DNA from: Chthoniobacterales bacterium
Lineage (GTDB): Bacteria; Verrucomicrobiota; Verrucomicrobiia; Chthoniobacterales; Terrimicrobiaceae
Assembly (NCBI GenBank): GCA_014879575.1
Contig: JACSRU010000086.1
Location: forward strand, 1-39,510
Reading direction: 5' to 3'
DNA: 39,510 bases
Both the position numbers and the translations under genes were made by a program. How positions within the stretch are numbered: position 1 is the first letter of the stretch; each line of letters opens with the position of its first letter. The notes beneath the pieces were generated by a model. The model ran no database searches and had not been told where the DNA came from. It saw nothing but the letters and a program-made list of their open reading frames with translations. Below are positions 3,668-28,068 of this stretch, in pieces.

Positions 3668-6256
3668 TTACCCTTCGAGGATTTCCGTGCGGGCGGAAAG
3701 ATTGTTCAAAAACTCGCGATGGGGGGTGTGGGCGGGGTCTGCGAGGTGGGGATCCTTCTCCAGCAACTCTCTGGCCGCCTGCCGGGCCTCGGTCATCAAC
3801 TCCCCGTCACGCAGGAGATCGCCCAATCGCAGGGGGGGAAGTCCGGCTTGGGCGGTGCCCAGGATGTCTCCGGGACCGCGCAATTGGAGGTCGGCTTCGG
3901 CAATTTCAAACCCGTCGGATGTGCGCTCCAACACGGCGAGTTTTTCCTTGGCGGACTCACCGGGATCACGCTGCAGAAGGATGCAGTAGGATTTCTCGGC
4001 ACCGCGACCGATCCTCCCGCGGAGCTGGTGGAGTTGAGAGAGGCCAAAACGGGCGGCTTCCTCGATCAGCATGATGCAGGCATTGGGCACATCAACCCCC
4101 ACCTCAATCACCGTCGTCGCCACAAGCACGGAGAGATTGCCATCCCGGAACTGGCGCATCACGAGTTCCTTCTCTTCGGAAGTCAGACGTCCATGGGCCA
4201 GTCCCACCCTGGAAGGCGCGAGGAGCTTTGTCCATTTTTCAAACTCTTCGCGGGCGGCTTTGGCGTCCAGTTTCTCCGACTCCTCGATCAACGGATAGAC
4301 CACGTAAGCCTGACGGCCTTCGGCGATTTTCGTTCGGAGAAAATTGAGGATGTCGGGGAGCTTTGCCGGTTCCCGCACGGCGGTGAGCACCTTTCCGCGA
4401 CCGGCAGGTTTTTCGCGGAGGATCGAGACATCGAGATCACCGTAAAGTGTCTGGGTAATGGTGCGCGGGATCGGGGTGGCTGTCATCACCAGCACATCGG
4501 GCGCATCACCACGCGCAATGAGACGCGAGCGTTGGAGAACACCAAATTTGTGCTGTTCGTCAATGACGATGAGCCCGAGCTTGTGAAGTTCCGCCCTGTC
4601 GAAGAGGAGGGCATGCGTGCCGACGACCAGCGGCGGGATCCGGCGGGACGCCGGATCCGACACGCGGGACGCGTGTGCTCCCCGGAGGTCTTCACGGCCT
4701 GGCCACCAGACCCAAGGGTAGTCTTCGTTCGCAGGCACGATCTTGCTGTCCCAGGGATTGCGCGTGATATAGGAAAACTTCTCTTGGAGGTCGGATTCCG
4801 ACCGGATGAGCCGGTCGAAGGATTCCTTTTCCCAGACTGGGCCTGTTTTGCCATTCGCCCTGTTGATCTCGTGGGCTGTGAACGATTTGATGGAATGAAG
4901 GATGCCGGTAAGTGGATGAAATCCGCCAGCTTCATTTAAGGAAGGTTCGATGAGCAAGTGAACATGATCCGGCATCACACAAACGGCATAAAGGTGATAC
5001 CGCCTGCCGTTTTCATGAAGAATCGAACTCCGTATGATGTCCCGATCTTCTTCCGATAGTGCCGTTCTGTCATGAGTCGAGAACGTAACGGCATACTTCG
5101 CCCAAGGTCGTTCAAAGTGCGGAAGATTTCTCTTCGAATAGCGCGTGCCGTCACCTCCGGGGAGCACACCCGTCCCGGGTGTGGCGTCCGGCGTCCCGCC
5201 GGACGACTCTTTCCTCGTAGCCGTGCGCAGCACCACACCAATCCCAAGGGGATCCAGAATTCTGCGGAAGTTCAAATAATGTTGTTCGGCGAGGATCTGG
5301 GTGGGTGCCATGAGGGCCGCCTGCCAACCGGATTCCGCCGCCTGCACCATGGCATGCAGCGCGACGAGGGTTTTTCCCGAGCCAACATCTCCCTGGAGGA
5401 GACGGTTCATCCGGTGTGAGGAAGCAAGATCGGCGGAAATTTCGGCAATGACCTGACGCTGGGAGCCTGTCAGTTCAAACGGCAGGGCCTCCACAACCTT
5501 TTTCTGAAATTCGCCTGTCCCAGGCTTGGGAGTTCCCCCGGAATTCCGCGTCGCGGCATGCCGGGCACAAACAACCAACTGGATCCCAAAAAACTCCTCG
5601 CGCACGAGGCTGTTCCTCGCGGCCGCCTGTTCCTGCCAGGTGTCCGGGAAATGCACGTTCCGCCAGACGTTTTCGGAGACGGGATTCCCCGGCCAGAGGA
5701 GGGGAATTGTGGCGGGATCGGTCGCATCGAGCGCCCGATGGATCAACACCCTGAGCATCCGCGCAGTCAGGCCGTCACCGGCCGGATGCACCGGTGTGAT
5801 CCGATCGAAGTGGATCGAGCGCTCGGCATCTTCCTCGAGGATTTCAAATTCGGGATGTTCCATGACCACCTGGTGATGACGAACTCTCGGCTTCCCGAAG
5901 ACGATGATTTGCTGGTCGCCGGTGATCATCTTCTGCACCCACGGCATGTTGAACCAACGGCAGATCAGCGGGGAGCCAAGCAACCCGGCCGATTCGTCCT
6001 CGATGCGGGCCTCAAAAATCCTGCGGGCGCCGAATCTTCGATAGGCGGTTTTTTTCACAACACCAAACAGGCAGAGGGGCGCTTCGGAGGGTCCGTCCGG
6101 AAAGCGGTCGAATTTGATCCGATCCTCGTAGCGGCGGGGAAAGTGCTTCAGGAGGTCGCCGAGCGTGAGCAGGCCCAGTCGTCGCAGGGAGGAAATGCGC
6201 TGCCGGGGCACCCATTCCAAATCTTCGAGGTTTGTGGAGGCAGGGAGGGGAGTCAT
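3668..6256 (-). CDS. recG: ATP-dependent DNA helicase RecG with an in-frame RAYT insertion
   Basis: RecG remodels stalled forks and branch-migrates Holliday junctions. All helicase landmarks are present: Walker A GDVGSGKT (289-296), motif Ia APTQILAEQH (317-326), motif II DEQHKFG (566-572), TATPIPRT (592-599) and QLRGRIGRG (744-752). The protein is 862 residues against roughly 690 for typical RecG. The excess is one block of about 190 residues (about 351-540) lying between motif Ia and the VVGTHALL segment, where normal RecG has a short loop. The block is a complete REP-flanked Y1/HUH transposase that keeps the reading frame open throughout. Removing it leaves a normal-sized RecG. The start ATG overlaps the recJ stop by 4 nt. 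Whether the fusion protein is an active helicase, transposase, both or neither cannot be told from the sequence. Confidence 0.93.
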   Translation of the reverse strand: MTPLPASTNLEDLEWVPRQRISSLRRLGLLTLGDLLKHFPRRYEDRIKFDRFPDGPSEAPLCLFGVVKKTAYRRFGARRIFEARIEDESAGLLGSPLICRWFNMPWVQKMITGDQQIIVFGKPRVRHHQVVMEHPEFEILEEDAERSIHFDRITPVHPAGDGLTARMLRVLIHRALDATDPATIPLLWPGNPVSENVWRNVHFPDTWQEQAAARNSLVREEFFGIQLVVCARHAATRNSGGTPKPGTGEFQKKVVEALPFELTGSQRQVIAEISADLASSHRMNRLLQGDVGSGKTLVALHAMVQAAESGWQAALMAPTQILAEQHYLNFRRILDPLGIGVVLRTATRKESSGGTPDATPGTGVLPGGDGTRYSKRNLPHFERPWAKYAVTFSTHDRTALSEEDRDIIRSSILHENGRRYHLYAVCVMPDHVHLLIEPSLNEAGGFHPLTGILHSIKSFTAHEINRANGKTGPVWEKESFDRLIRSESDLQEKFSYITRNPWDSKIVPANEDYPWVWWPGREDLRGAHASRVSDPASRRIPPLVVGTHALLFDRAELHKLGLIVIDEQHKFGVLQRSRLIARGDAPDVLVMTATPIPRTITQTLYGDLDVSILREKPAGRGKVLTAVREPAKLPDILNFLRTKIAEGRQAYVVYPLIEESEKLDAKAAREEFEKWTKLLAPSRVGLAHGRLTSEEKELVMRQFRDGNLSVLVATTVIEVGVDVPNACIMLIEEAARFGLSQLHQLRGRIGRGAEKSYCILLQRDPGESAKEKLAVLERTSDGFEIAEADLQLRGPGDILGTAQAGLPPLRLGDLLRDGELMTEARQAARELLEKDPHLADPAHTPHREFLNNLSARTEILEG
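4639..4689. repeat. REP arm (left), two GGGAC-loop hairpins
   Basis: The arm contains two adjacent 6-bp hairpins, TCCGGC-GGGAC-GCCGGA and ACACGC-GGGAC-GCGTGT, with the same five-base loop, followed by the foot GCTCCCCGGAGGT. It is an inverted copy of 5153-5203, with 46 of 51 positions identical. On the recG strand it codes for residues around REDLRGAHASRVSDPASRR. Confidence 0.9.
5153..5203. repeat. REP arm (right), two GGGAC-loop hairpins
   Basis: In the recG sense it reads TCCGGC-GGGAC-GCCGGA then ACACCC-GGGAC-GGGTGT, then the same foot as the left arm. The second stem differs from the left copy at two positions that pair with each other, so the hairpin is kept. It codes for residues SGGTPDATPGTGVLPGG of the RecG fusion. 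Confidence 0.9.
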
Positions 6257-9064: not shown

Positions 9065-10084
9065 TTACTCCTGGTTTTTGGCTTGCGCCTCCAGTTTCTT
9101 TACCCGGTCGTAAAGTTTATGGATGTTCTTCAGGAGTGCGTAGGTCGCCTTGTATTCGCGGATGGGTCGGGCCGGGGCGCCAAACATGATGCTCTTGGCC
9201 GGCACGTTCTTTGCAATGGCAGACATCGCGCCGAAGACCACTTCGTCGCCGATTTCAATGTGTCCGCTCAGTCCCACCTTTCCGGCCAACGTCACAAAAT
9301 TTCCCAGACGCGTGCTGCCGGAAATGCCAACCTGTGCGCAAAGGACGCAATTCTCACCGATCGTCACATTGTGTCCGATCTGGACAAGATTATCAATTTT
9401 CGTGCCCTTGCGAATCCACGTGCGTCCAAACCGCGCCCGGTCCACCGTCGTGTTGGCGCCGATTTCCACGTCGTCCTCGATGACAACGATTCCCGTCTGC
9501 GGGATTTTTTGATGCGCCCCGTCACGAAATTCATACCCGAATCCATCGGCTCCGATGACGACCCCGGAATGGAGAGTGACCCGGTTGGCCAGGGTGCAGC
9601 GCTCACGAATTGTCACGTTCGGAGAGATCCGACAATCCTCTCCGATGCAGGCTCCGTGGCCAATGTAGGCATGAGCGCAGACTATCGAGCGCGCTCCAAT
9701 GCGAGCCCCCGCTTCGATCACCGCGCAAGCACCGACATGAACCCCCTCGCCGAGCGTAGCCTCGGGATGAATCACCGCCGAAGGATGCACCCCGGCAGGG
9801 AAGGTGATGACCGGAGGAACAAAGGCCGGGAGCAGTTTCGCAAAGGCGGCACCCGGATCGTCCACCCAGATCCGGATCGCTGGCAGCTCCTCGCCAAATC
9901 CCTGCGGCACAAGAATGGCCGTGGCGCGGGATTTTCTGGCCGCCTTGAGATATTTTGGATTTCCAAAAAACGCAAGATCCCCGGGGTTGGCGTCGTCAAG
10001 CGACGCCAAGCCGGAGATTTCCTGTGCGGCGACTTCTGGAGCCACCCAGCCGCCCGTTTGGGCGGCCACCTCACCAAGAGTCAT
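9065..10084 (-). CDS. lpxD: UDP-3-O-acylglucosamine N-acyltransferase
   Basis: LpxD adds the N-linked 3-hydroxyacyl chain in lipid A synthesis, using acyl-ACP. The 339-residue product has the N-terminal uridine-binding domain (SLDDANPGDLAFFGNPKYL). A long left-handed beta-helix of hexapeptide repeats follows, including GADGFGYEF, KIPQTGIVVIEDDVEIGANTTVDRA split over two turns, and DNLVQIGHNVTIG with the family's conserved histidine. A C-terminal helix (ALLKNIHKLYDRVKKLEAQ) closes the trimer-forming protein. It starts 5 nt after the skp stop. The bamA-skp-lpxD order is the same as in Escherichia coli. Confidence 0.95.
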   Translation of the reverse strand: MTLGEVAAQTGGWVAPEVAAQEISGLASLDDANPGDLAFFGNPKYLKAARKSRATAILVPQGFGEELPAIRIWVDDPGAAFAKLLPAFVPPVITFPAGVHPSAVIHPEATLGEGVHVGACAVIEAGARIGARSIVCAHAYIGHGACIGEDCRISPNVTIRERCTLANRVTLHSGVVIGADGFGYEFRDGAHQKIPQTGIVVIEDDVEIGANTTVDRARFGRTWIRKGTKIDNLVQIGHNVTIGENCVLCAQVGISGSTRLGNFVTLAGKVGLSGHIEIGDEVVFGAMSAIAKNVPAKSIMFGAPARPIREYKATYALLKNIHKLYDRVKKLEAQAKNQE

Positions 10085-10089
10085 GCTCT

Positions 10090-10683
10090 TCAGGGAGCGG
10101 ATGTTGCCTTGGGTGCGGTCTTGTTGAGCGTTTCCACGATTTCCTTGCTGAAATCGAGGTCGCTGCGGGAGTAAACCAGAACCGGAATTTGTCCCATGCT
10201 CATTCCGGACTTGTCAAAAACGACGTCAAACCCGGCACTTTTGATTTTTTCGTTCACGACCTTCATGATCTCATCAATAATGTCCTTGCGCATGCGGACA
10301 AATTGTTCCTGCAACGCCCGCTCGCGGGTGCCGCGGAATTCCGTGATTTCCCGGTCGAGGTTGCGGGCTTCGTTCACCTTTTCATCGCGGGTCTTTGCCG
10401 CCTTGTCCTTTGCATCTTTGCTGAGCTCGGGTTTTTCGACATCCGCATTGATTTTATTGATGTCGTCCATGGCCTTCTTGAGGGTCTCCAAGCGGTCATC
10501 GAGTTCCTTTTTTGCTGCCGCACGGGCCTCATTGAGCTTCGCCTCAGCGTCCTTTGTTTTGTAATACTGGGTGAAGATGGCGTTCATGTCCAGGGTGCCG
10601 ATTTTGACCTGGGCGCTGGCCGACGGAGCGACTGCGAAGAGTGCTGTTGCCAGAATGGTGACGGATAGGATGGATTTGAGCAT
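10090..10683 (-). CDS. skp: OmpH/Skp family periplasmic chaperone
   Basis: Skp holds unfolded outer-membrane proteins in the periplasm and hands them to the Bam complex. The 197-residue product has a clear signal peptide ending at SASAQ (about residue 24). A strand follows with the family's IGTLDMNAIF, then a long charged coiled coil (about 45-140, rich in K, E, D and A). The C-terminal strand motif is AGFDVVFDKSG. It sits between bamA (80 nt upstream) and lpxD, the conserved context for Skp. Its length is close to the family norm. Confidence 0.92.
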   Translation of the reverse strand: MLKSILSVTILATALFAVAPSASAQVKIGTLDMNAIFTQYYKTKDAEAKLNEARAAAKKELDDRLETLKKAMDDINKINADVEKPELSKDAKDKAAKTRDEKVNEARNLDREITEFRGTRERALQEQFVRMRKDIIDEIMKVVNEKIKSAGFDVVFDKSGMSMGQIPVLVYSRSDLDFSKEIVETLNKTAPKATSAP

Positions 10684-10763
10684 TGTGGTTGTTTGGGTTG
10701 TATGAAGTGTTAAGTGGGTCTTATGTGAGGGTCAAGGTTTTGACCGCTTCCGCTGGGATTCGT

Positions 10764-13166
10764 TCAAAATTGATAGCCAATATTAAAATTGAATTTTCCT
10801 GGGGGCCCGTTCCAGCTGTCGTAAACGACCGGAATGCCATAATCCACGCGGATCGGGCCGATGGGCAGATCGAGGCGGAGGCCGATGCCCACGTCCACGT
10901 TCGTGTTTGTCGTGTTGAAGTCCCCGGCTTCGACATTGACGAAGCCCATGTCGCTGAAGACGGCTCCACGGACCCGGGACATGATCGGGAAGGTCATTTC
11001 AAAGGTCAGATAAGCCAGCGAGTTGCCGCCGATGGGATTGCCGTATTCGTCCACGGGGCCGACTTCCCGGAAATTGAAGCCGCGCATGTTGTTGGCACCG
11101 CCAAGGTAGAGTCGGTCAAAGATGGGAACCCCGTTGCCGTAGCCGTCGTCCTTTGACCCTTCGTTGCCACCCCACCCGTTGACGATGGCAATCTGCCCCT
11201 TGACGAGGAAGATCAAATCGTAGGGGAGCGAGAAGTATTTTGAAGCCTCAAGGGAAATTCCGTAATCCTGCACGTCCCCTCCCAGCCCCCCTCCGGCGAT
11301 GAACGCGGTGAATTCGACCACCTCCCCCTTCCGGGTGAGGAAGAGATTGTCCCGGGTATCCCAGATGAGCGAGCCCGTGAGGGCGCTCTTCACATACGTC
11401 CCTTCCGCGTCCTGGATGACGGGGCCGGCATTTTCATTGCCGTTGTAGCCGTCGTTGTAGCCGTTGTAGTAGAAGTAATCGTAGTCATCCTGCGTGTGGT
11501 CCACGTCGTAAATTTTGATTTGTTCGAGCCGGTATTCCGCCCGGGCGGAAAGTGCCCGCCAGATTTGCTTGCGGGCCTGGAGCGCGACGCCGAGGTTTGA
11601 CTGGTTGTAAACATCGGAGAGGAATGTCGCGTTCCGGTAGTAGCCCTCCACGCCGACGGAAAGTTTGTATCCCAGGAACCAGGGCTCGGTCAGGGCAATA
11701 ACGAAATCGCTGCGCTTGAGTCCATATTGTCCACGGATGCGGAACCTTTGGCCACCTCCCGTGAAGTGCGGCCAGTTAAAGAGGTCAAAGTTTGTTTGCT
11801 GGATTTCCGCAAACCCCAGGAGGCTGTCGATCGTGCTGAAGCCCACGCCGAAGTTGAACGATCCCGTGCGTTTTTCCTCGACGATCACATTGAGATCCTT
11901 GCGCCCCGGAACGATGGTGTCGGAGGGTGCGGTATCCACCCGGGAAAAATAGTTCAGGTTTTCCAGGCGGTTTTTGCTGACGTCCACGAGTGTGGTATCG
12001 AAGACATCGCCGGGTTTGACGGCCAGTTCGCGGCGGATGACGCGATCCTGTGTGCGGGTGTTCCCCTGGATGTTGACAAGGTTGACGTAGGACTGCACGC
12101 CCTCATCCAGGTGGTAGGTTACGTCAACCAAGCCGGGGCCGGCCGGCAGGATTTCCGGCGTGGCAAGCATGTCCACATACCCCCGGCTTCCGTAGAAATC
12201 CCGGAGGGTTTTGAGATCGTCACCCATGCCTTTTGGCGTGAAAAGTTGTCCGCCGAGCATTTTCAGACGCGTCAGAACCTCATCCTGGGACGTGACGTTC
12301 ACGCCTTCCAATTTGACCTTGTTCATGCGGTATTGCATGCCCTCGTTGATGGTCACGGTCATTTCCACCCCGTCGCGCTGCACCGGGAGCGTCTGGATGT
12401 CCGTGATCTCGACATCCGCAAACCCGCGGTTTTGGTAAAGCGTCTTGATGGCCGCGCCGTCCTCCTCGATCTGCGCGGGGACAAGCCGTCCGCTCTTCGT
12501 GAAGAACGAGAGCATGTCCTCGGGTTTTGTCTTCATCACCTTGCGGAGATCCTTGGCGAGGACGGAATCGTTCCCGACGAAGGTGATCCGCTTGACGATC
12601 AACTTGGGACCCTCATTGATCGCGTAGATGACCTTTGAGCGGTTGGTTCCCTTGATTTCCTCGATTTTGTATTGGACCTCGACTTCGGCGTAATTTTTGT
12701 CCTCGTAAAGTTTGATGATTTTCTGGCGGTCGTCCTCGACCCTTTCCTCGCTGATGACATCACCGACTTTCGTGCCGATTTCCCGGCGGACCCGGCTCAT
12801 TGGGATCTGGTCGGCTCCTTCGATCAGGACCTCCTCGATCACTGGACGGCCCTGCAGGAGCACGGTGACCTTGACTCCGTCGCCAAGGGGCTCCGCAAAG
12901 ATGCGGACGTTTGAGACACCCCCGGTCGCATAGAGTGCCCGGATGTCCTGCTCGGCGGCCCGCTCGCTGTAGGGGGAACCGATTTTTGTGGCCAGGTTGG
13001 CAAGCACGCGTTCCTTGGAAATGCTGGGAGCCCCGACATTTTCGACCGCAATCTCCCGGACCACCGGAGCGGTCGCAACCTGGGCATTCAAAGGGTGCAG
13101 AAGCACCGCAAACAATACCGACGCAAAGACCGACAGGTATCTATGTTGAAAACGGCAAAATGTCAT
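10764..13166 (-). CDS. bamA: Outer membrane protein assembly factor BamA
   Basis: BamA is the essential Omp85 barrel that folds and inserts outer-membrane proteins. The product has a signal peptide (MTFCRFQHRYLSVF to LHPLNAQ), about five POTRA domains (roughly residues 35-410) and a 16-strand-type barrel. The conserved loop is present as LYLGGANNMRGFNF, and the chain ends in an aromatic residue (NFNIGYQF). I place the start at the ATG at 13166, which gives 800 residues with a proper signal peptide; the frame runs open to 13241 (ATG at 13217, TTG at 13241) but those starts would precede the signal. One barrel loop is strikingly Tyr/Asn/Asp/Gly-rich (DDYDYFYYNGYNDGYNGN). It is the first gene of bamA-skp-lpxD. 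Confidence 0.95.
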   Translation of the reverse strand: MTFCRFQHRYLSVFASVLFAVLLHPLNAQVATAPVVREIAVENVGAPSISKERVLANLATKIGSPYSERAAEQDIRALYATGGVSNVRIFAEPLGDGVKVTVLLQGRPVIEEVLIEGADQIPMSRVRREIGTKVGDVISEERVEDDRQKIIKLYEDKNYAEVEVQYKIEEIKGTNRSKVIYAINEGPKLIVKRITFVGNDSVLAKDLRKVMKTKPEDMLSFFTKSGRLVPAQIEEDGAAIKTLYQNRGFADVEITDIQTLPVQRDGVEMTVTINEGMQYRMNKVKLEGVNVTSQDEVLTRLKMLGGQLFTPKGMGDDLKTLRDFYGSRGYVDMLATPEILPAGPGLVDVTYHLDEGVQSYVNLVNIQGNTRTQDRVIRRELAVKPGDVFDTTLVDVSKNRLENLNYFSRVDTAPSDTIVPGRKDLNVIVEEKRTGSFNFGVGFSTIDSLLGFAEIQQTNFDLFNWPHFTGGGQRFRIRGQYGLKRSDFVIALTEPWFLGYKLSVGVEGYYRNATFLSDVYNQSNLGVALQARKQIWRALSARAEYRLEQIKIYDVDHTQDDYDYFYYNGYNDGYNGNENAGPVIQDAEGTYVKSALTGSLIWDTRDNLFLTRKGEVVEFTAFIAGGGLGGDVQDYGISLEASKYFSLPYDLIFLVKGQIAIVNGWGGNEGSKDDGYGNGVPIFDRLYLGGANNMRGFNFREVGPVDEYGNPIGGNSLAYLTFEMTFPIMSRVRGAVFSDMGFVNVEAGDFNTTNTNVDVGIGLRLDLPIGPIRVDYGIPVVYDSWNGPPGKFNFNIGYQF

Positions 13167-13267
13167 GGCTTGGGCAGCAAACGGAGCGTTCTTGCCCCGG
13201 CGTGAAACAAGCTGCATGCCCGATACGCCCGGAAACGTCAAGAAACGAATGTCGGAGAATGTTTTAT
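13167..13267. promoter_or_regulatory. Divergent bamA/SulP intergenic region
   Basis: These 101 nt separate two divergent genes and should contain both promoters. On the minus strand TTGACG (13236-13241) resembles a -35 box, but no good -10 lies 17 nt away. On the plus strand GGAG at 13254-13257 gives a ribosome site 10 nt before the ATG at 13268. No operator palindrome is evident. Confidence 0.35.
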
Positions 13268-15081: not shown

Positions 15082-15558
15082 CTACATCGGTGGCGCAAGG
15101 ATGCGGATGGCAGGATCTTCCTGGCGGGTCGTGCTGTAAATCCGGGCGGGCGCGGTGGACTTCAGTTCGTAACCCTTGAGAACGAACTCCGGATAGAAGC
15201 GGTCGCTTGCCGGCTCATAGACCTGTTCGCCGGAAAACCCGCCCATGAGACGGTATTCGTAATTGTTATCCGATCCGATTTTTCCCGCTTCGCGATCTGG
15301 CGCCAGTTTGGCCTGTTCGTTCAGCATCACATGCTTCGCCGTCTTCCAGGGTTGGCCGGGTTCGCGCACCCAGCCCCACATCTTGTAATCTTTTTTATAC
15401 ATCCGGCGCCCGACAAAATAATCTCCCGGCACCTCCGCCTGAATGGCGGCGTTCATCTCCGCACGGCCCGCCGCGCCGACATCCACGGTCTCGCAACCGG
15501 TGAGAACAATCAGCAGGCAGAGACTGCCCAGCAAGGGGAAGGGCTTGGATTTCATCAT
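15082..15558 (-). CDS. Lipoprotein of unknown function
   Basis: The 158-residue product opens with a lipoprotein signal (MMKSKPFPLLGSLCLLIVLTGC), so the cysteine at residue 22 should be lipidated. The mature part has a GDYFVGRRMYKKDYKMWGW segment and ends rich in Tyr/Pro/Thr. I do not recognise a family. The start is chosen at 15558 because the upstream stop TGA overlaps its ATG by one base (TGATG), and GGGAG lies just upstream; a second ATG at 15555 is equally possible. It is the last gene of the minus-strand run that begins at 22076. Confidence 0.75.
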   Translation of the reverse strand: MMKSKPFPLLGSLCLLIVLTGCETVDVGAAGRAEMNAAIQAEVPGDYFVGRRMYKKDYKMWGWVREPGQPWKTAKHVMLNEQAKLAPDREAGKIGSDNNYEYRLMGGFSGEQVYEPASDRFYPEFVLKGYELKSTAPARIYSTTRQEDPAIRILAPPM

Positions 15559-16481
15559 CAGACTCCCGCGCGTTGGAGATAGGGTTTTAACCATTCGGCC
15601 AAAGCCTCCTCGGAATCAATCCGGACCTCGTCCGCAATTTCAAAGAGATACCAATTCTCCGTGTGGGAGACAGATTCTCCGGGTGCCAGCGTTGCCAGCG
15701 GACTGAGCGATTCGATCTCGAGCATCTCCGAACAGGCGTAGGTCTCGAAATTGCAACCGCCATCCGGATAAATCGCCCCCTGGACATGGTCAAACGTCTT
15801 GAGGAAAAGCGAATCTTCGATGACATACGCGATCCATTTCTCCCGGTGGGCGAGTCCAAGCTTGGTGGGCGAGAAGCCTTCACTCTGGCGCAGGGTAAAA
15901 AAGTTTCGTCCGAGGTGCCACCGCGGGTCGGTGAGATCGGTGTAGGGCCAGAGGACGATTCCCCGGTTGGGCTGCAAATCGCGCGGATGTTCGCCCAGGG
16001 GAGGCTGCGGGATAATTTCCAGTCCCCCCGGCTTCATGACACTGAGCCCCCACGCCGCGATCTGGATCGGCTCATCGCCACGATTCCTCGCGGTGTGCCG
16101 AATCGTGACATGCGAGTCATTGTCTGCAAGCGTGACTCCCAGCGTTTTGAGAATCTTCCCGCAGTGGTCCTGCTGGGACTCAATGACAATCTCCTCCGTG
16201 AAATCCTCGACCCGATAGTCCACCGGAAAATTATCCGGGTGGTAGGAGAGAACCTCGTCCTCGGGGGCGATCCAAAAGCGGTGTCCCCCGCGGAGTTTGA
16301 ACGCGTCTTCTCCCGAACAGCCGAGTTGCTCGTCGCAGAGCTTGAAGACGTTGTCCCCATTCCTTCGTTTGTAACTCAAAATGCGGGGCCCGACATCGAG
16401 GGTTACGATCACTTCCGCAAATTCGTTTGAGAGCGAGAGATTCCGGTTCCAACCGGCGTAGGGGATGACTTCTGTGTTCAT
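15558..16481 (-). CDS. Aldose 1-epimerase-like (DUF4380-type) protein
   Basis: The 307-residue protein looks like the galactose-mutarotase-like beta-sandwich superfamily. An early strand segment reads VTLDVGPRILSY. GGHRFWIAPED gives a substrate-site-like His/Arg pair. AWGLSVMKPGG and a HTENWYLF segment come near the end. The overall layout resembles the DUF4380 group, which I recall mainly as uncharacterised sugar-binding or epimerase-like proteins. There is no signal peptide, so it is probably cytoplasmic. The stop overlaps the following lipoprotein start by one base. A 93-nt gap separates it from the ketosynthase-like gene upstream, so an own promoter is possible. Substrate is unknown. Confidence 0.72.
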   Translation of the reverse strand: MNTEVIPYAGWNRNLSLSNEFAEVIVTLDVGPRILSYKRRNGDNVFKLCDEQLGCSGEDAFKLRGGHRFWIAPEDEVLSYHPDNFPVDYRVEDFTEEIVIESQQDHCGKILKTLGVTLADNDSHVTIRHTARNRGDEPIQIAAWGLSVMKPGGLEIIPQPPLGEHPRDLQPNRGIVLWPYTDLTDPRWHLGRNFFTLRQSEGFSPTKLGLAHREKWIAYVIEDSLFLKTFDHVQGAIYPDGGCNFETYACSEMLEIESLSPLATLAPGESVSHTENWYLFEIADEVRIDSEEALAEWLKPYLQRAGV

Positions 16482-16574: not shown

Positions 16575-17606
16575 TCATCCTTCCGGAGCCGCGAGAAGTG
16601 CGCAGGAGATCTGGCCGCTCCACCCCAGCACAGGGATCACCGCCCTTCCGGACGCCTCCAATGACTCCCAGCCGCACAGACACTGCAAAAGGCTGGATAC
16701 GGCAAAGGCTTCGCCCGCCACGGCTTTGGGAACCAGAGTGGGAATTCCGGAAAAACACTCGCGCACCGAATATTCCTCCTGGTGATTCGGACCGGACGAG
16801 GAAAGGACGGCCACTCCGGGCGTCTCTCCCCGGGTGGTCTCGCCAAGGATCTGAACAATTTTTCTGTGGCGGCTTGCCCCACGCGACAGCAGCTTTCCGG
16901 AATGCACGTGGAGGATTTGTGCATGCGCCGGATCTGCGGGGCCGACAACGAGAGCAACGGCGCCCTCCGTCAGCACGGCCCCCCGCCGGGAACGTCCCGA
17001 GGGTGTGGTGAGACCCCATCGCCGATAACCCTCGCAGGTAATCCAATCCAGTTCCTCGGCGGCAACCACCAGGCACTGGTCGGCCTCCCCCGAGAAAATC
17101 AGATCCGCAGCGGTGGCGAGCGCACTCAAGCCGACGGTGGCATCGTTCACGAGAGTCAGCACCACTCCATCCAGACCGAGCATGGCCGCGATGTGGCTGG
17201 CCGGGGCATTGTAAACGGTTTCCGGAAAAAGGAGCGGACTGCCGGTTCCCCGCGCAAGGACATCCTTATAAAAACGGCGTGTGTAAGCCACCGAACCATC
17301 CGAAGTGGCATAGACCAGAGCCATTCTGCCGCCTGGCAGCACCCCGCTGTTCCGAACCGCATCCTCTGCCGCCGCGCAGGCAAAATAGGAAATTCCGGCG
17401 GACCTTCGCAAACGGGTGGCAACACGCTCGGGAACTTCCGGCAGTGGCGTCTTGTAAACTTCGACAGGTGCCGGACAATCCGGCCCCTGCAGGGTGGAAA
17501 TTTCCGGCGGCTGGTTCTTCCGGATTCTGTCCCAGACAGTTTTCCAGTCGCGCCCCAGAGGCGTGACACATCCCGCGCCGAGAAGCGAGAGCCCCATGTT
17601 TTTCAT
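16575..17606 (-). CDS. Ketosynthase-like protein lacking the catalytic triad (chain-length-factor-like)
   Basis: The 343-residue protein has a thiolase-fold ketosynthase layout (GAGCVTPLG at 10-18, GRMALVYATSDGSVAY, TEGAVALVVG), but each catalytic position is changed. The cysteine position is Ala156 (LVNDATVGLSAL against SNACASGTNAL). The HGTGT segment is replaced by SSSGPNHQEE. The second histidine is Glu299 (KAVAGEAF against KGMTGHAL). It is shorter than active ketosynthases. Its ATG overlaps the stop of the active ketosynthase gene by 4 nt. This pairing matches the KS/chain-length-factor heterodimers of type II polyketide, aryl polyene and related systems, so it is probably the non-catalytic partner. 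The frame extends upstream to 17780, but only inside the neighbouring gene. Confidence 0.82.
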   Translation of the reverse strand: MKNMGLSLLGAGCVTPLGRDWKTVWDRIRKNQPPEISTLQGPDCPAPVEVYKTPLPEVPERVATRLRRSAGISYFACAAAEDAVRNSGVLPGGRMALVYATSDGSVAYTRRFYKDVLARGTGSPLLFPETVYNAPASHIAAMLGLDGVVLTLVNDATVGLSALATAADLIFSGEADQCLVVAAEELDWITCEGYRRWGLTTPSGRSRRGAVLTEGAVALVVGPADPAHAQILHVHSGKLLSRGASRHRKIVQILGETTRGETPGVAVLSSSGPNHQEEYSVRECFSGIPTLVPKAVAGEAFAVSSLLQCLCGWESLEASGRAVIPVLGWSGQISCALLAAPEG

Positions 17607-18820
17607 GGTCCTTTTTCCAGGAGGATTGTGGCGTTCGAACCCCCGAAACCGAAGGAATTGGACAGGACCTTGCAGGGCCTGGCCTTCCGGGCGGTGTTTG
17701 CCACGATGTCCAAACCGGAATCCGATTCGCGGAGATTGATGTTTGGCGGCAAAAATCCCCCCTCCATCGCCAGGAGGCAAAAGGCCGCCTCGATGGCGCC
17801 TGCCGCACCCAGGGCATGACCGGTCATGCCTTTCGTGCTGCTGACGGGCACCTTGGGGCAGACCGCGCGGATGGCCGCCGCCTCGCTGGCGTCATTGTAG
17901 GGGGTGCCGGTACCGTGCGCATTGATGTAATCCACCTCGTCCGCGGACCAGCCGGCGCTTGCAAGGGCGCGTTCCATGGAAAGTCGGGGACCAATCCCCG
18001 AGGGATCGGGCTGGGTGAGATGGTGGTTGTCATTGGCAAACCCCCAGCCGGCCACCGAAGCGCGCACAACCTCCCCGGGAACCTCCCCGCCCGCTTCGAT
18101 CAAAAAACAGGCCGCTCCCTCGCCCAGGACAAGGCCGGTTCGTGCGGAGTCAAACGGACGACACTTCTCGGCGGTTGAGGCGCGAAGGCTGTCAAATCCG
18201 GCAAAGACAAGCTCCGCCAGCGCATCGAACCCGACGACCAGCACGCGCTTCGCACGCCCCTTCTTCACGAGCCCGGCCCCGAGGCAAAGGGCGTTGGTTC
18301 CGGACGCGCAGGCGTTTGAGACCACTTGCAAGGGGGCGTCAAATCCGAAGCATTTCATCGCCTCGATCACGGGTTGCTGGGGCACATACCCGCGCACCAA
18401 CCGGCGTGCTGTCCGCTGGCTCACGCCGCCGGGAAGTGTTCGAAAAAACGCTTCCCCGAAGTCCATGCCTCCGCTGGTCGTGCCGGCCACCACGATGTCC
18501 GGAACAAATCCGGGACGACCCGCCAATGCCTCCTGCATGGCCAAAAAAACCTGCCGGGCCGCCCGGGACCACCGAAGAGAGGCGAGGCAACCGTTTTTTT
18601 CGCAACGGACCTCGAAATCCGGCGGCAACTGACCGGCTGTGCGAGAGTGAAAGGCCTCGACGGGAAAGAGCCTGACCTCGGAAACCCCATCCTTCCCATC
18701 CCGCAATGCCGTCATCGTCGAGGGAACATCACCGCCGAGCGGGCTTAAGCATCCCAAGCCGGTAATGACTGGAGGGAAGGGCGTCGGCTCCCGCCGGGAA
18801 ACAGGGCGATCAATATCCAT
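17603..18820 (-). CDS. Beta-ketoacyl-ACP synthase (KAS II/FabF-like), catalytically complete
   Basis: The 405-residue protein is a decarboxylating condensing enzyme. The active-site cysteine is C171 in VSNACASGTNAL. The two histidines are H302 in INAHGTGTPYND and H335 in KGMTGHALGAAGA, with K330 beside it. The closing GFGGSNATILL is standard. It condenses an acyl chain with malonyl-ACP. The next gene encodes an inactivated homologue coupled by ATGA, so I infer a KS/chain-length-factor pair rather than housekeeping FabF. Its start overlaps the end of the GH75-like lipoprotein gene by 11 nt. No acyl carrier protein, ketoreductase or dehydratase gene is adjacent, so these must come from elsewhere. 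The product cannot be named. Confidence 0.9.
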   Translation of the reverse strand: MDIDRPVSRREPTPFPPVITGLGCLSPLGGDVPSTMTALRDGKDGVSEVRLFPVEAFHSRTAGQLPPDFEVRCEKNGCLASLRWSRAARQVFLAMQEALAGRPGFVPDIVVAGTTSGGMDFGEAFFRTLPGGVSQRTARRLVRGYVPQQPVIEAMKCFGFDAPLQVVSNACASGTNALCLGAGLVKKGRAKRVLVVGFDALAELVFAGFDSLRASTAEKCRPFDSARTGLVLGEGAACFLIEAGGEVPGEVVRASVAGWGFANDNHHLTQPDPSGIGPRLSMERALASAGWSADEVDYINAHGTGTPYNDASEAAAIRAVCPKVPVSSTKGMTGHALGAAGAIEAAFCLLAMEGGFLPPNINLRESDSGLDIVANTARKARPCKVLSNSFGFGGSNATILLEKGP

Positions 18821-20180
18821 TCGTGCGATCCGGCAGATTCGTTGAAGCTGGCGGTGGAGAGATGACAGCCGGTTCGGGCTGTGGAGATGCGGAGGCAGGA
18901 ACCCCCTCCGGAGAGGGAGCGGGCGTCGGTGTTGGGGTGGGCGTTGGCCAGGGCTTCACCAGATTTGGCCAACTGTGAATGGGTGCCTTCACCCCCCCAA
19001 GTTCCTTGGCGAATTGCTCGCACTTTGCGCGCCAAGCCTCCAAATCGGGAGGGGCTCCCTGCTCCGCTGCCGTTCCAGGAAAAACAAGATAGGCCACTTT
19101 CAGATCGCTGGTGGCACCTGCGGCGGCTGAGGCTCGGGCGTTTAATTCCCGACAGAGGAGCAGGGAGGCTTCCCCCAGCTTAAACGAAGGACCTGCATCG
19201 CCAAGCACCGCCGGATACGCCCTGCCCCCGAAGAGCACGAGCGCGAAATCGCCAATGGCCGGGGAGAAAGGGTTTTCCTTGTCGCGCATCATGAACCCCG
19301 GCAGGACGATAAACGGATCGGTCTCCGACACCAGAAAGCTCCATTTCTTCATGTCAAAAATCCTCCGCTTGGCCAGAGCGATCCCCTCTTCGATTTCCTT
19401 TTTCCTCGTGGCATTGGCACCCGGCAACTCCGCCTTCAACGCGTTGAGACGGGCCTGTTCCACCGGAATAAACGGGTTTTCGCGTTCCGTTTGCTTCAGC
19501 CACCGATAACTGGTCTGGGGGAGGAAAAATTGGGAGGATCCGTCCACCGTGACATTTCGGTCACCATCCGAACCATCCACATTCACATCCATGTCGCCGA
19601 CCGCCAGCAGGGCGCGACGCCCGGTCGTCGGATTCTGCATTTCGAGAATCGTCTCGCAGTCATACAAATTATGCCGCGCCAGCAACCCGTCCAAGCGCGA
19701 CATCTCGCGTTCGATTTGCGCGAGTTTCAACGCATAAAGTTTCTCGTAAAACGGGGAAACATTGGCGCCGGCAAGCAGACTCCCAAAGTCCTCGAAGGCC
19801 CCGGGAAGCGAGGGCTCGTTTTTCAAAAAATCCTCCGTCGTCGTGCTGGGGCGCGGCAGGCGGGCCCGGACGGTGACCTCCACCTGATACGCCTGCAAAT
19901 CCTTCCGGTCCTGCGAGGCCAGTTCGGGGCTTTGCTCGGCCACCAGCCTGGTTTGAAGCGCGAGTCCGTTAAAAAGTCTGGCGGTGGCGAGCGGCTTGCG
20001 CGGAAGGGAGGGGATGGGAGTTGGCGTCGGAACCGGCGTGGGAGTTGGGCTCGGGGCGGGTGTCGGCGTCGGAGGTGGAGGGGGCGGCGGCTGCGACGGA
20101 CAGCCTACAAGCAGCAGACAGAACGCCAGGGAAAACAGCACCGCGGGAATCCGGAGTTTCAAACACCTGGGGATTCGCAT
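18810..20180 (-). CDS. Lipoprotein with GH75-like (chitosanase-type) domain and Pro/Thr linkers
   Basis: The 456-residue protein has a lipoprotein signal (LLLVGC, Cys27). A Pro/Thr linker of PTPTP type follows (about 30-60). A globular domain comes next (about 140-350), and a second Pro/Thr/Ser-rich tail runs from about 410. The globular domain resembles glycoside hydrolase family 75: YDCETILEM, GDMDVNVDGSDGD (195-207), DPFIVLPGFM, GDFALVLFGGRAYPAVLGD and GEASLLL, with D328 and E337 as candidate catalytic acids. GH75 enzymes cleave chitosan. Here it would be surface- or periplasm-anchored. The stop overlaps the ketosynthase start by 11 nt, and the thioesterase fusion gene ends 18 nt upstream. 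The family assignment is by recall of motifs and should be treated as probable. Confidence 0.65.
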   Translation of the reverse strand: MRIPRCLKLRIPAVLFSLAFCLLLVGCPSQPPPPPPPTPTPAPSPTPTPVPTPTPIPSLPRKPLATARLFNGLALQTRLVAEQSPELASQDRKDLQAYQVEVTVRARLPRPSTTTEDFLKNEPSLPGAFEDFGSLLAGANVSPFYEKLYALKLAQIEREMSRLDGLLARHNLYDCETILEMQNPTTGRRALLAVGDMDVNVDGSDGDRNVTVDGSSQFFLPQTSYRWLKQTERENPFIPVEQARLNALKAELPGANATRKKEIEEGIALAKRRIFDMKKWSFLVSETDPFIVLPGFMMRDKENPFSPAIGDFALVLFGGRAYPAVLGDAGPSFKLGEASLLLCRELNARASAAAGATSDLKVAYLVFPGTAAEQGAPPDLEAWRAKCEQFAKELGGVKAPIHSWPNLVKPWPTPTPTPTPAPSPEGVPASASPQPEPAVISPPPASTNLPDRTNGY

Positions 20181-20198
20181 GGAAAAATGGGCTCCGGC

Positions 20199-22076
20199 TC
20201 AGGCGTGCGCAATGAACGCCGAATACACATCCGACGGGATGTCCAGCATCTTGTATGTGCTGGAGGAGACGAACAACAGCGTCTGCTTGCCGCGTCCGAG
20301 AATGTGCCCGGCGGAGTCGAAAATCTCGTGTTCGAGCGTGGCGAATTTCCGGTTGTAGCCGGCCACGCGAATTTTAACGCTCACGGTCTCGAACTCGCGC
20401 GTCTCGCGCACAAATTTGTGCTCAAACGAACGGGTAAGGATGTAGTAGGGCGTGTTCTTCAGGTTGAATTTCGGCATCAGGCGGTTGAAGAAAAGTTCGC
20501 GCGTTTTGCCCACCCACATCGCATACATGCCAAAATAGACGTTGCCGACGGAATTGGTGTCCCCATACGTGGCGACAAACGAATGCACGAACCACTTGCC
20601 CTCGAAGTGTCCGCCCAGATTATGGGCAAACGCGGTGATCTCGGCGGCCGTGGGGATTACATGCGTGGCCGCGAGCGCCTCTCCCGGGGGATTTATCACT
20701 CCGCCGGCACTGCGATTTTCCTCGTCAACCGGCGCCTCCAGTTCCTCCTTGTCACTCAGGAATTCCTCCGAGGACCTCGGCTTGATCAACAGCCAGATCA
20801 CATACCCCAACGGGAGCAGGGAACCAAGAATCTGGAAGAACGGGGAACGGAGAAAGTAGCCGTAGGAAAAGATCACCACGGCCAGACTTCCGATACAGAA
20901 CATCTTGATCTGGGGGATCGCGTTGGCCCGGCTCACGAGATAGCAACGCACAATCGCGAGCAGGGAGTAGCCCACAAAAAACGTCGCATAGAAAATCATG
21001 AAAAACTCCAGTTCGAACCGGAGGAGCGCCCCCGCTAGCGCCACAAGCCCGCAGAGCACGAAGACCGGAATCGGGGAAGTGAGCAACTTGGTCGAAACGA
21101 GTGAAAAAATCGGATGGTTGCTCGTCTTCGCGTTGGATTGCAAAAACCAACGCAGGGCGACATACCCACTGTCGAGCGTGGTCAGCACGCACACCGACAC
21201 AAAAATCCCGTAGGCCGCAAAGGTCAACGGCCCGGCCTGCGAAAAGAGATGCATCAGGATTCCCTCGCCATACGGATGTCCGGTAATCCCCGTCTGGATG
21301 AACTTCGCGGCCTCCCCCCAATTCAACGCCCAGGCGGTCATCAGTCCATGGAACATGAGGAGGAGGAAAAAGAGGATCGAACCGATCCAATAACCCGCCG
21401 CGATCGAAACCCTTTCCCGATGCATCTGGATCGCCCGCTGCCACTGTTGGAGGTCCAGCCAGGGCCCCACAAGGAATCCGATGATGATCGGCACGGCATA
21501 GCCCCAGTAGTTCCAGTCATTCGTGGGAAGTTTCGGGAAGGAGAGCGGCCCCGTCCCCTTCATCACCGCATGGATGATGAGGCAGGCAACCGCCGGTGCC
21601 AGCAGCAAAAAAAGAACCCCGTGGCTGAACTTGATCCGCTTGATGTCGAACTCCTCCCCAAAAAGGATGGCCGCCGCGAGCACCACCAACAGCGTCAGTG
21701 GCAGGTAGAGCAGCCAGGGCTCGAGCCCCAACGGTTGCCAGACATATCGCAAAAACGCAAAAATCGTCAGAGTGATCGCCAAAATCTGGTAGAGGAAAAA
21801 GACCAGCCGGAAGGGCCGCGACCAGGCGGCAAAGAACTGGGCCAGGGATTCCGAGCCCTGTTGTCTGCGCGCCAGATGATGTGTCACCAACCCAAAACAC
21901 AACAGCCCAAGAAAATTTGGGATCGCAAATGTCAGAAGTCCGAAGACCCCGAATTGTGTGGTGAATTGGACGGAAAAAAACAATCCCAGCCCCCACATCC
22001 AGGACAGGGCGACCGAGTTTCCCCAGAGAATCGCCCCGAACCAACGGGGAAGATTTGACGTCGAAGTTGAGGCCAT
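20199..22076 (-). CDS. Transporter-like membrane protein fused to a hotdog thioesterase
   Basis: Residues 10-435 form about 12 membrane segments and resemble sodium:solute-symporter (LeuT-fold) proteins, for example GPWLDLQQWQRAIQMHRE at 204-221 and TTLDSGYVALRW. After a linker (436-480), residues about 485-620 are a hotdog-fold thioesterase with YGDTNSVGNVYFGMYAMWVG and KTRELFF. The Asn508 and Arg526 positions match the catalytic Asn/Arg arrangement described for enediyne-type polyketide thioesterases such as CalE7, rather than the Asp/Glu of the 4HBT type. The ATG at 22076 has GGGGA just upstream; a TTG at 22115 only lengthens the frame. Being upstream of the ketosynthase pair suggests it releases and perhaps moves an acyl product. 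Substrate and transport are unproven. Confidence 0.8.
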   Translation of the reverse strand: MASTSTSNLPRWFGAILWGNSVALSWMWGLGLFFSVQFTTQFGVFGLLTFAIPNFLGLLCFGLVTHHLARRQQGSESLAQFFAAWSRPFRLVFFLYQILAITLTIFAFLRYVWQPLGLEPWLLYLPLTLLVVLAAAILFGEEFDIKRIKFSHGVLFLLLAPAVACLIIHAVMKGTGPLSFPKLPTNDWNYWGYAVPIIIGFLVGPWLDLQQWQRAIQMHRERVSIAAGYWIGSILFFLLLMFHGLMTAWALNWGEAAKFIQTGITGHPYGEGILMHLFSQAGPLTFAAYGIFVSVCVLTTLDSGYVALRWFLQSNAKTSNHPIFSLVSTKLLTSPIPVFVLCGLVALAGALLRFELEFFMIFYATFFVGYSLLAIVRCYLVSRANAIPQIKMFCIGSLAVVIFSYGYFLRSPFFQILGSLLPLGYVIWLLIKPRSSEEFLSDKEELEAPVDEENRSAGGVINPPGEALAATHVIPTAAEITAFAHNLGGHFEGKWFVHSFVATYGDTNSVGNVYFGMYAMWVGKTRELFFNRLMPKFNLKNTPYYILTRSFEHKFVRETREFETVSVKIRVAGYNRKFATLEHEIFDSAGHILGRGKQTLLFVSSSTYKMLDIPSDVYSAFIAHA

Positions 22077-26955: not shown

Positions 26956-28068
26956 ATGAAGATTATTGATCGCACGGTCGGGTTCGGGATCTTTCTCACC
27001 ACGTTTTTTGGCGTGTTGGTTCTGAGCCTCATTCTGGTTCTGGGCAACATTTTCAAGGAACTCCTGGACATCCTGATCAACAACCCAGACGTGCCCATCA
27101 CGACCGTGTTGGCCTTCATGGCGCTCGTGTTGCCATTTTCCCTGACCTTCACGATTCCCTGGGGATTTCTGACCGCTCTCCTGCTCGTGTTCGGGCGCAT
27201 GTCCGCTGACAACGAGCTCATCGCCCTGAAGTCCAATGGGGTCAGCGTGCCGAGGATTTGTGTGCCCGCCTTCCTGCTGGCGATTGCGCTGACGCTGATT
27301 TGTTTCTGGATCAACATCGAAGTCGCGCCCCGGGCCGAACAGGCGATGACGCGGGCGGTCGTGGATATCGCCACCAGCAATCCGGCCTCCCTCTTCCGCG
27401 CGGACGAGGTTGTGGACAAGTTTCCCGACCGGCGCGTCTATGTGGGGAAAAAGGAGGGCAACCAACTTTTCAACATCATCGTTTTTGAACTGACCGAGGA
27501 ATTCGTGCCGAAGCAGATGATCTATGCCAGGGAGGGCGTGTTGACCACCGATCCCAAGAATGGCTCGCGTCTCCTCCTCCGGCTTTTCAATGCCCGCTTT
27601 GAACAGCGCGATGACAAAGACCCGCGGGATGTCGCCAAGATTCGGCAGGGAATTGTCATGGAGGAGGGCGTGTTTCCGATCTCGCTCGAAAAATTTTTTG
27701 AGGAATTCCAAGGGAGTCGTCGTCTGAGTTCCTACACTCTGCCTGAGTTGACGGATCTGATGCTCAAGGGGGCTGGGGATCGGCAAACCGAGGTGGTTGT
27801 GGAGTTCAACAAGCGGTTTTCGGTCTCCCTGGCCTGCGCCGCCTTTGTGTTGATCGCGATTCCCTTTGGTATCACGGCCCACCGGAAGGAGACATCGGTT
27901 GGCTTTGGGCTCAGTCTGATCATCGCCTTCACGTATTTTTTCTTCATCATCATGGCGGACACCTTCCGCAACAATCCCGCAGCACATCCGGCGCTTCTGA
28001 TCTGGGTGCCCAACGTCCTGTTCTTCTGTTTGGGATCGTATCTTTTTTACCGGTTGAGCAAGCGCTGA
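26956..28068 (+). CDS. LptF/LptG (YjgP/YjgQ) family permease
   Basis: The product belongs to the YjgP/YjgQ family. These are the inner-membrane components of the LPS export ABC complex LptB2FG, which push lipopolysaccharide toward the LptC-LptA bridge. The 370-residue protein has two or three N-terminal membrane segments (including TTFFGVLVLSLILVLGNIFKELLD and LPFSLTFTIPWGFLTALLL). The conserved early region FGRMSADNELIALKSNGVS and a periplasmic jellyroll-like middle (about 115-260) follow. Three C-terminal membrane segments complete the fold. Only one copy is here, so LptF and LptG cannot be separated. It follows accA by 15 nt. Confidence 0.9.
   Translation: MKIIDRTVGFGIFLTTFFGVLVLSLILVLGNIFKELLDILINNPDVPITTVLAFMALVLPFSLTFTIPWGFLTALLLVFGRMSADNELIALKSNGVSVPRICVPAFLLAIALTLICFWINIEVAPRAEQAMTRAVVDIATSNPASLFRADEVVDKFPDRRVYVGKKEGNQLFNIIVFELTEEFVPKQMIYAREGVLTTDPKNGSRLLLRLFNARFEQRDDKDPRDVAKIRQGIVMEEGVFPISLEKFFEEFQGSRRLSSYTLPELTDLMLKGAGDRQTEVVVEFNKRFSVSLACAAFVLIAIPFGITAHRKETSVGFGLSLIIAFTYFFFIIMADTFRNNPAAHPALLIWVPNVLFFCLGSYLFYRLSKR

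Follow-up and report, generated by a model that had tools for sequence, protein, structure and literature searches.

In this article, I discuss a run of four genes on the minus strand of a 39,510-base stretch of DNA (the window), which is an entire contig (JACSRU010000086.1) from the 3.6 Mb genome of a Chthoniobacterales bacterium (assembly GCA_014879575.1). The run encodes, in order, a transporter-thioesterase fusion, a lipoprotein, a ketosynthase (KS) and a KS-like protein of the chain-length factor (CLF) kind. An earlier reading made from the letters alone (the sequence-only reading) had described four packed genes with an 18 nt gap between fusion and lipoprotein and overlaps of 11 nt (lipoprotein/KS) and 4 nt (KS/KS-like), and its coordinates and spacings proved exact; it did not include two further same-strand genes, first mutarotase-like and then for a small lipoprotein, which continue the run past the KS-like gene. 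A promoter scan stayed near chance (2 against 1.6). The genes are as follows.

20199-22076, minus strand: SLC5-like transporter-thioesterase fusion, 625 aa, predicted transporter at residues ~9-434 and C-terminal thioesterase (4HBT_2) at ~495-621
18810-20180, minus strand: GH75-like lipoprotein, 456 aa, with a Glyco_hydro_75 match and a proline-rich linker
17603-18820, minus strand: predicted active KS, 405 aa, PF00109 and PF02801, with Cys, His, Lys and His
16575-17606, minus strand: CLF-like partner (KS-like), 343 aa, PF00109 only, without the catalytic Cys and without the C-terminal KS domain
15558-16481, minus strand: TTE1925-mutarotase-like gene (match under the NCBIfam cut-off), adjoining the KS pair downstream
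15085-15558, minus strand: small core lipoprotein, 158 aa, without a Pfam match, in 51/58 relatives

Comparison with relatives shows that separate conserved pairs have been joined, within one genus, into the four-gene run, and indicates that the KS/CLF pair probably belongs with a dedicated acyl carrier protein (ACP), a dedicated dehydratase and a housekeeping ketoreductase to an aryl-polyene (APE)-type pathway that is dispersed in Chthoniobacterales genomes.

The KS matches PF00109 (7.2e-20) and PF02801 (6.9e-33), and its partner matches PF00109 (1.7e-13) with the C-terminal KS domain not matched. KS hits in 58 relatives were sorted into three sets: group A, with orthologues at 46-75% identity to the window KS (21 genomes including that of the window), group B, with a KS 39-45% identical and an adjoining CLF (14 genomes, of which one has a partial hit), and genomes with neither pair (23). 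The catalytic Cys is present in 20/20 group-A KS rows, which also keep the His, Lys and His, vs 0/16 KS-like rows, and the first His is likewise absent from all 16 of the partners, so that the earlier description of a complete KS beside a KS-like protein lacking catalytic residues stands. The partner, matched in 40/58 relatives, is under selection and not decaying, because 19 aligned CLF orthologues are strongly conserved over stretches peculiar to them, for example FPETV.NA. To judge by family and alignment, the two proteins are a type II polyketide synthase (PKS)-like KS/CLF-type pair, predicted to form a heterodimer.

The sequence-only reading had also set this KS apart from housekeeping FabF and had suggested a phylogeny as the check, which was run: in an 81-row tree, whose finer claims are limited by the long branch of a Streptomyces CLF and by a quick search method, the group-A KSs form one clade (SH-aLRT 99) outside the FabF clade and sister to the group-B KSs (99), and the CLFs of both groups form one clade (98). 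The genome's own FabF is a separate gene (contig C121) that joins the E. coli FabF side of the tree, a constraint uniting group A with FabF was rejected (p-AU 6.5e-10), and the window KS reaches 263 bits against NCBIfam fabF, under the cut-off of 493.75; a housekeeping FabF was therefore rejected as the identity of the KS. No NCBIfam family was above its cut-off for the window KS, profile searches of solved structures ranked many FabFs together with KS and CLF and did not separate the classes, and a tblastn search of plasmids returned distant KS relatives only, some in unannotated records. As a separate observation, contig C81 of the window genome (L125) holds an open frame of 2958 aa that matches a ketosynthase once and ACPs several times, and which looks like a type I PKS or a polyunsaturated fatty acid synthase.

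Among the named loci, taken from a scan of species-level genomes as the best 80 of 304 relatives (many of these loci are short, and partner genes could lie past a contig end), the KS stands beside its CLF in 78/80, and the fusion and lipoprotein are neighbours in 32 of the 37 relatives that have a fusion (a tally of 38 less G050, which was dropped as a partial hit 26% identical). Since both gene pairs stay neighbours across genera, a chance layout is excluded. Among the other relatives found with the CLF, most bear the label Chthoniobacterales, Spartobacteria or Verrucomicrobia. The sequence-only reading had taken the four genes as one pathway and had named scattering of the genes in relatives as the refuting outcome, and scattering is what was found. 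A group-A KS and the fusion occur together in 11/58 genomes and are close in 3 of these 11, all from the window genus; the same four-gene order as in the window is seen in G003 and G001; and the fusion and lipoprotein lie beside the KS pair in 2/80 named loci, both again from that genus. On single contigs the KS pair and fusion pair are ~0.73 Mb apart in G006 and ~0.59 Mb apart in G009, which belongs to the same family as the window genome, and G002, of the window genus itself, has the fusion pair with the KS-pair orthologue absent. The fusion was not enriched with the KS pair (11/21 genomes with it vs 14/23 without, p 0.76). One conserved four-gene unit was therefore rejected, the genes being scattered in the other genera tested and showing no co-occurrence, and the position of the fusion pair beside the KS pair in the window genus may be incidental. 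The mutarotase-like gene and the small lipoprotein make up a third old pair, neighbours even in genomes without a KS pair; in several families this third pair directly follows the KS pair on its downstream side. The small lipoprotein often has either the mutarotase-like gene or a KS pair next to it, and its model (pLDDT 80) suggests an OB-like barrel, for which the structural matches were not convincing (best Z 5.4). The sequence-only reading is thus partly supported, having seen a true run and rightly placed the KS pair apart from FabF, but having taken for a pathway what is the layout of a single genus.

The same reading had seen no adjacent ACP, ketoreductase or dehydratase and had left the reductive steps to the host. 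The window genome has both an ACP and a dehydratase of the group-B kind, the first on contig C26 and the second on C57, and each stands by itself with only unrelated genes around it. With cut-offs set after the score gap had been seen (E <= 1e-20 for the ACP, E <= 1e-30 for the dehydratase), the ACP was found in 19/21 group-A, 12/14 group-B and 4/23 neither-pair genomes (A vs neither, p 9.7e-7) and the dehydratase in 17/21, 11/14 and 2/23 (p 1.6e-6), p-values that overstate the independence of the observations because the genomes are related. The result was kept in genomes at least 90% complete (ACP 18/19 vs 3/20, dehydratase 16/19 vs 2/20), the within-family contrast ran in the same direction in families f2, f6, f7 and f12, and the ACP was present in 46 of the 50 named KS/CLF genomes tested (of 80), including Chthoniobacter flavus Ellin428. 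A wholly host-supplied ACP and dehydratase were rejected, since dedicated genes were found at two further, unlinked loci, co-occurring with the KS pair. How far these loci lie from one another can be seen in G006, where a single contig carries the KS at ~2.61 Mb, the ACP at ~2.49 Mb, the fusion pair at ~1.88 Mb and the dehydratase at ~0.40 Mb; no ACP or dehydratase was found at 100 group-A KS loci (20 + 80), and conversely neither KS nor CLF turned up at any of 20 dehydratase loci or of 30 ACP loci, the ACP loci being only ~3 kb long.

Group-B pairs, by comparison, belong to clusters that also encode an ACP and a dehydratase, acyltransferases, an MMPL exporter, a polysaccharide deacetylase, a glycosyltransferase, an AMP-ligase and halogenase-like FAD proteins. 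Thirteen group-B loci, some cut by contig ends, hold the dehydratase in 9 cases and the ACP in 7, and these clusters resemble aryl polyene or xanthomonadin-like ones, also by comparison with the E. coli gene table (PMC8253772). No genome among the 58 has both the dispersed group A and the clustered group B, as though one stood in for the other; G013, counted as lacking a KS pair, has a fragment of a group-B cluster. A separate case is the metagenome-assembled genome (MAG) G020, in which contig C112 (L289, 1-5735) carries group-B genes for an acyltransferase, deacetylase, ACP, acyltransferase and dehydratase just upstream of a fusion and lipoprotein, all on one strand; because 28 residues are missing from the start of that fusion and neither of its close relatives, G011 and G019, has the same arrangement, a chimeric contig is as likely, and this second linkage is not relied on.

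Because the window-type pair is sister to the group-B pairs and co-occurs with an ACP and a dehydratase at two other loci, I read it as part of an APE-type pathway whose gene cluster has been lost and which is dispersed over the genome. The KS/CLF would condense malonyl units, with the growing chain carried by the dedicated ACP, a FabG-type housekeeping ketoreductase would reduce the keto group and the dedicated FabZ/FabA-like dehydratase would remove water, and, with no enoyl reductase acting, double bonds would pile up into a conjugated polyene-type chain, its length set by the CLF and its final place in the envelope. The KS/CLF step and its ACP and dehydratase partners are predicted from family membership and co-occurrence; the ketoreductase, polyene nature, starter and destination are my inference. 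The scheme is like APE biosynthesis (ApeO-ApeC with ApeE/F and ApeI/P) in its KS with a KS-like CLF, its own ACP and dehydratase and its chemistry resembling fatty acid synthesis (PMC8253772, PMC8358021), and ApeO-ApeC alone is described as giving a fully elongated polyene in vitro (PMC8358021). It is unlike APE biosynthesis in that pair, ACP and dehydratase lie at three places and in that no APE transport, starter or reductase genes stand beside the window-type components; beside the group-A pairs no starter-loading, MMPL exporter or acyltransferase genes were seen, a genome-wide search not having been made, except near L213 (G030), where AMP-ligase, halogenase-like and LPG-synthase TM genes lie near the pair.

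Several observations weigh against an APE-type pathway, beginning with the relatedness of the genomes mentioned above. The ACP is missing from the group-A genomes G045 and G053, a clear dehydratase was not found in G010, G045, G047 and G051, which also have a group-A KS, and G002 has both ACP and dehydratase yet no KS pair; in family f4, an ACP with a middling score occurs in three genomes that have neither kind of pair, A or B. The family models, too, fall short: the window KS scores 257 bits (its orthologue in isolate LR76, 294) against a cut-off of 407 for PRK09185, which I take to be ApeO, and the best NCBIfam match of the ACP, PRK09184, presumably the APE-type ACP model, gives 55 bits with the cut-off of 70 not reached, compared with 20 bits for PRK06508, presumably the AcpXL model.

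The fusion and the GH75-like lipoprotein are a separate old pair and an independent envelope module, unassociated with the KS pair. The predicted fold of fusion residues 9-434 is closest to CHT1 (9bfj, Z 26.9, rmsd 4.0 over 392), followed by DUR3, SGLT, NIS and the sialic acid transporter (SiaT), so that the N-terminal part is modeled as a LeuT-type SSS fold, SLC5-like, with transport predicted; unlike those symporters, the fusion has no Pfam SSS match and has a thioesterase tail. The model has a mean pLDDT of 56, and because confidence is low in the thioesterase part, that assignment rests on sequence: a 4HBT_2 match (8.6e-11) at the C-terminus, in agreement with the hotdog thioesterase that the sequence-only reading had placed on a membrane protein, and an active-site motif, DTNxVGNVYF...RE, invariant in 21 aligned orthologues, which together predict a hotdog thioesterase. 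The nearest solved relatives are 5vpj, 9ccr, 4i4j (an ACP-polyene thioesterase), CalE7 and DynE7, with which the motif is shared in the form [DE]TNxVGNVY[FY]...RE; the scores for the enediyne enzymes CalE7, DynE7 and 4i4j are weak (31-49 bits), and the case here differs from theirs in that the thioesterase is fused to an SLC5-like transporter and that no enediyne synthase was identified. The role of CalE7 is to free the polyene made by an iterative synthase (PMC3107222), and the likeness is suggestive of a polyene pathway, but the distribution of the fusion does not track the KS pairs. Across the phylum the fusion was found in 6/288 genomes, three from this order (including the window genome) and the other three all from a single genus of a different family in the class, and a literature search found no paper on a transporter-thioesterase fusion.

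The lipoprotein, called hydrolase-like in the sequence-only reading, bears this out with a Glyco_hydro_75 match (9.9e-9) and a signal peptide ending, by eye, in the lipobox LLVGC. It shares with the GH75 chitosanases, such as viral V-Csn, the domain and both catalytic acidic residues, an Asp/Glu pair kept in 19/19 orthologues and aligned with V-Csn D148/E157 (positions taken from the D148N/E157Q entry names and the alignment), and is unlike them in being lipid-anchored, in having a proline-rich linker and in its presence in 55/58 relatives. The pair might combine hydrolysis of acyl thioesters at the cytosolic face, beside a symporter, with glycan cutting outside. That in the window genus the fusion, once brought into the KS/CLF operon, would cut the finished polyene off the ACP at the membrane and pass the free acid to its own channel is an improbable extension, and no release-and-transport chimera of this kind is described in the literature searched. 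LptF/G-like genes lie near the fusion in several relatives too, and the window itself carries genes for LpxD, BamA/Omp85 and an LptF/LptG permease (9065-13241 (-) and 26956-28068 (+)).

The chief rival to a polyene is a product of the rhizobial kind, in which the KS/CLF, ACP and dehydratase would supply lipid A or some other lipid of the envelope with a saturated or hydroxy acyl chain that is very long or otherwise special; I regard this as possible though unlikely. The composition agrees with that of the rhizobial AcpXL/FabZXL/FabF1XL/FabF2XL set, a dedicated ACP, a dehydratase and two KS-type proteins (PMC11901934), except that the rhizobial genes are clustered. One group-B cluster contains a lipid A acyltransferase-like protein (PF03279), and three family-f8 loci have an LptD/LptA-like gene after the pair, recognized by eye and not by family search. 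What speaks for a polyene instead is that the ACP fits PRK09184 far better than PRK06508, presumably the APE-type and the AcpXL model respectively, and that the group-B relatives have halogenase-like FAD enzymes, an AMP-ligase and an MMPL exporter, as polyene clusters do.

It is harder still to sustain the idea of the sequence-only reading that the four genes jointly make and release one acyl product with coupled export: tight packing on one strand, the order repeated in G003 and G001, the likeness of the fusion thioesterase to polyene-ACP thioesterases and the thioesterase ApeK of the E. coli APE cluster (PMC8253772) all fit it, but it is decidedly unlikely given that the genes are scattered in the other genera tested without co-occurrence and that the fusion occurs in 14/23 genomes without any KS pair. 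Very improbable, finally, is a KS/CLF that uses only the housekeeping ACP and modifies normal fatty-acid synthesis, with a different role for the ACP and dehydratase that co-occur with it; this would suit the physical separation of the parts at group-A loci but not the strong co-occurrence or the clustering of the same components with the sister KS/CLF in group B.

One further oddity of the window, apart from these genes, is a RecG of 862 aa (3668-6256, minus strand) with a match to Y1_Tnp, an IS200-like transposase, inside the helicase (residues 387-476, E 5.9e-5), an unusual architecture.

The more interesting result therefore lies outside the four-gene coordinates, in a probable aryl-polyene-type pathway kept across an order with its genes spread over the chromosome, and the fusion of transporter and thioesterase adds another unusual architecture. 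A Udaeobacter MAG was reported with weak arylpolyene (16%) and ladderane (8%) calls and no confirmed product (PMC7343977), calls that may or may not reflect the genes described here. If the pathway is real, three unlinked loci are predicted to belong to it, and a whole order of bacteria from soils and lakes, most of them uncultured and Udaeobacter and Chthoniobacter among them, would have a polyene-type acyl pathway that is visible to cluster-based mining only as fragments.

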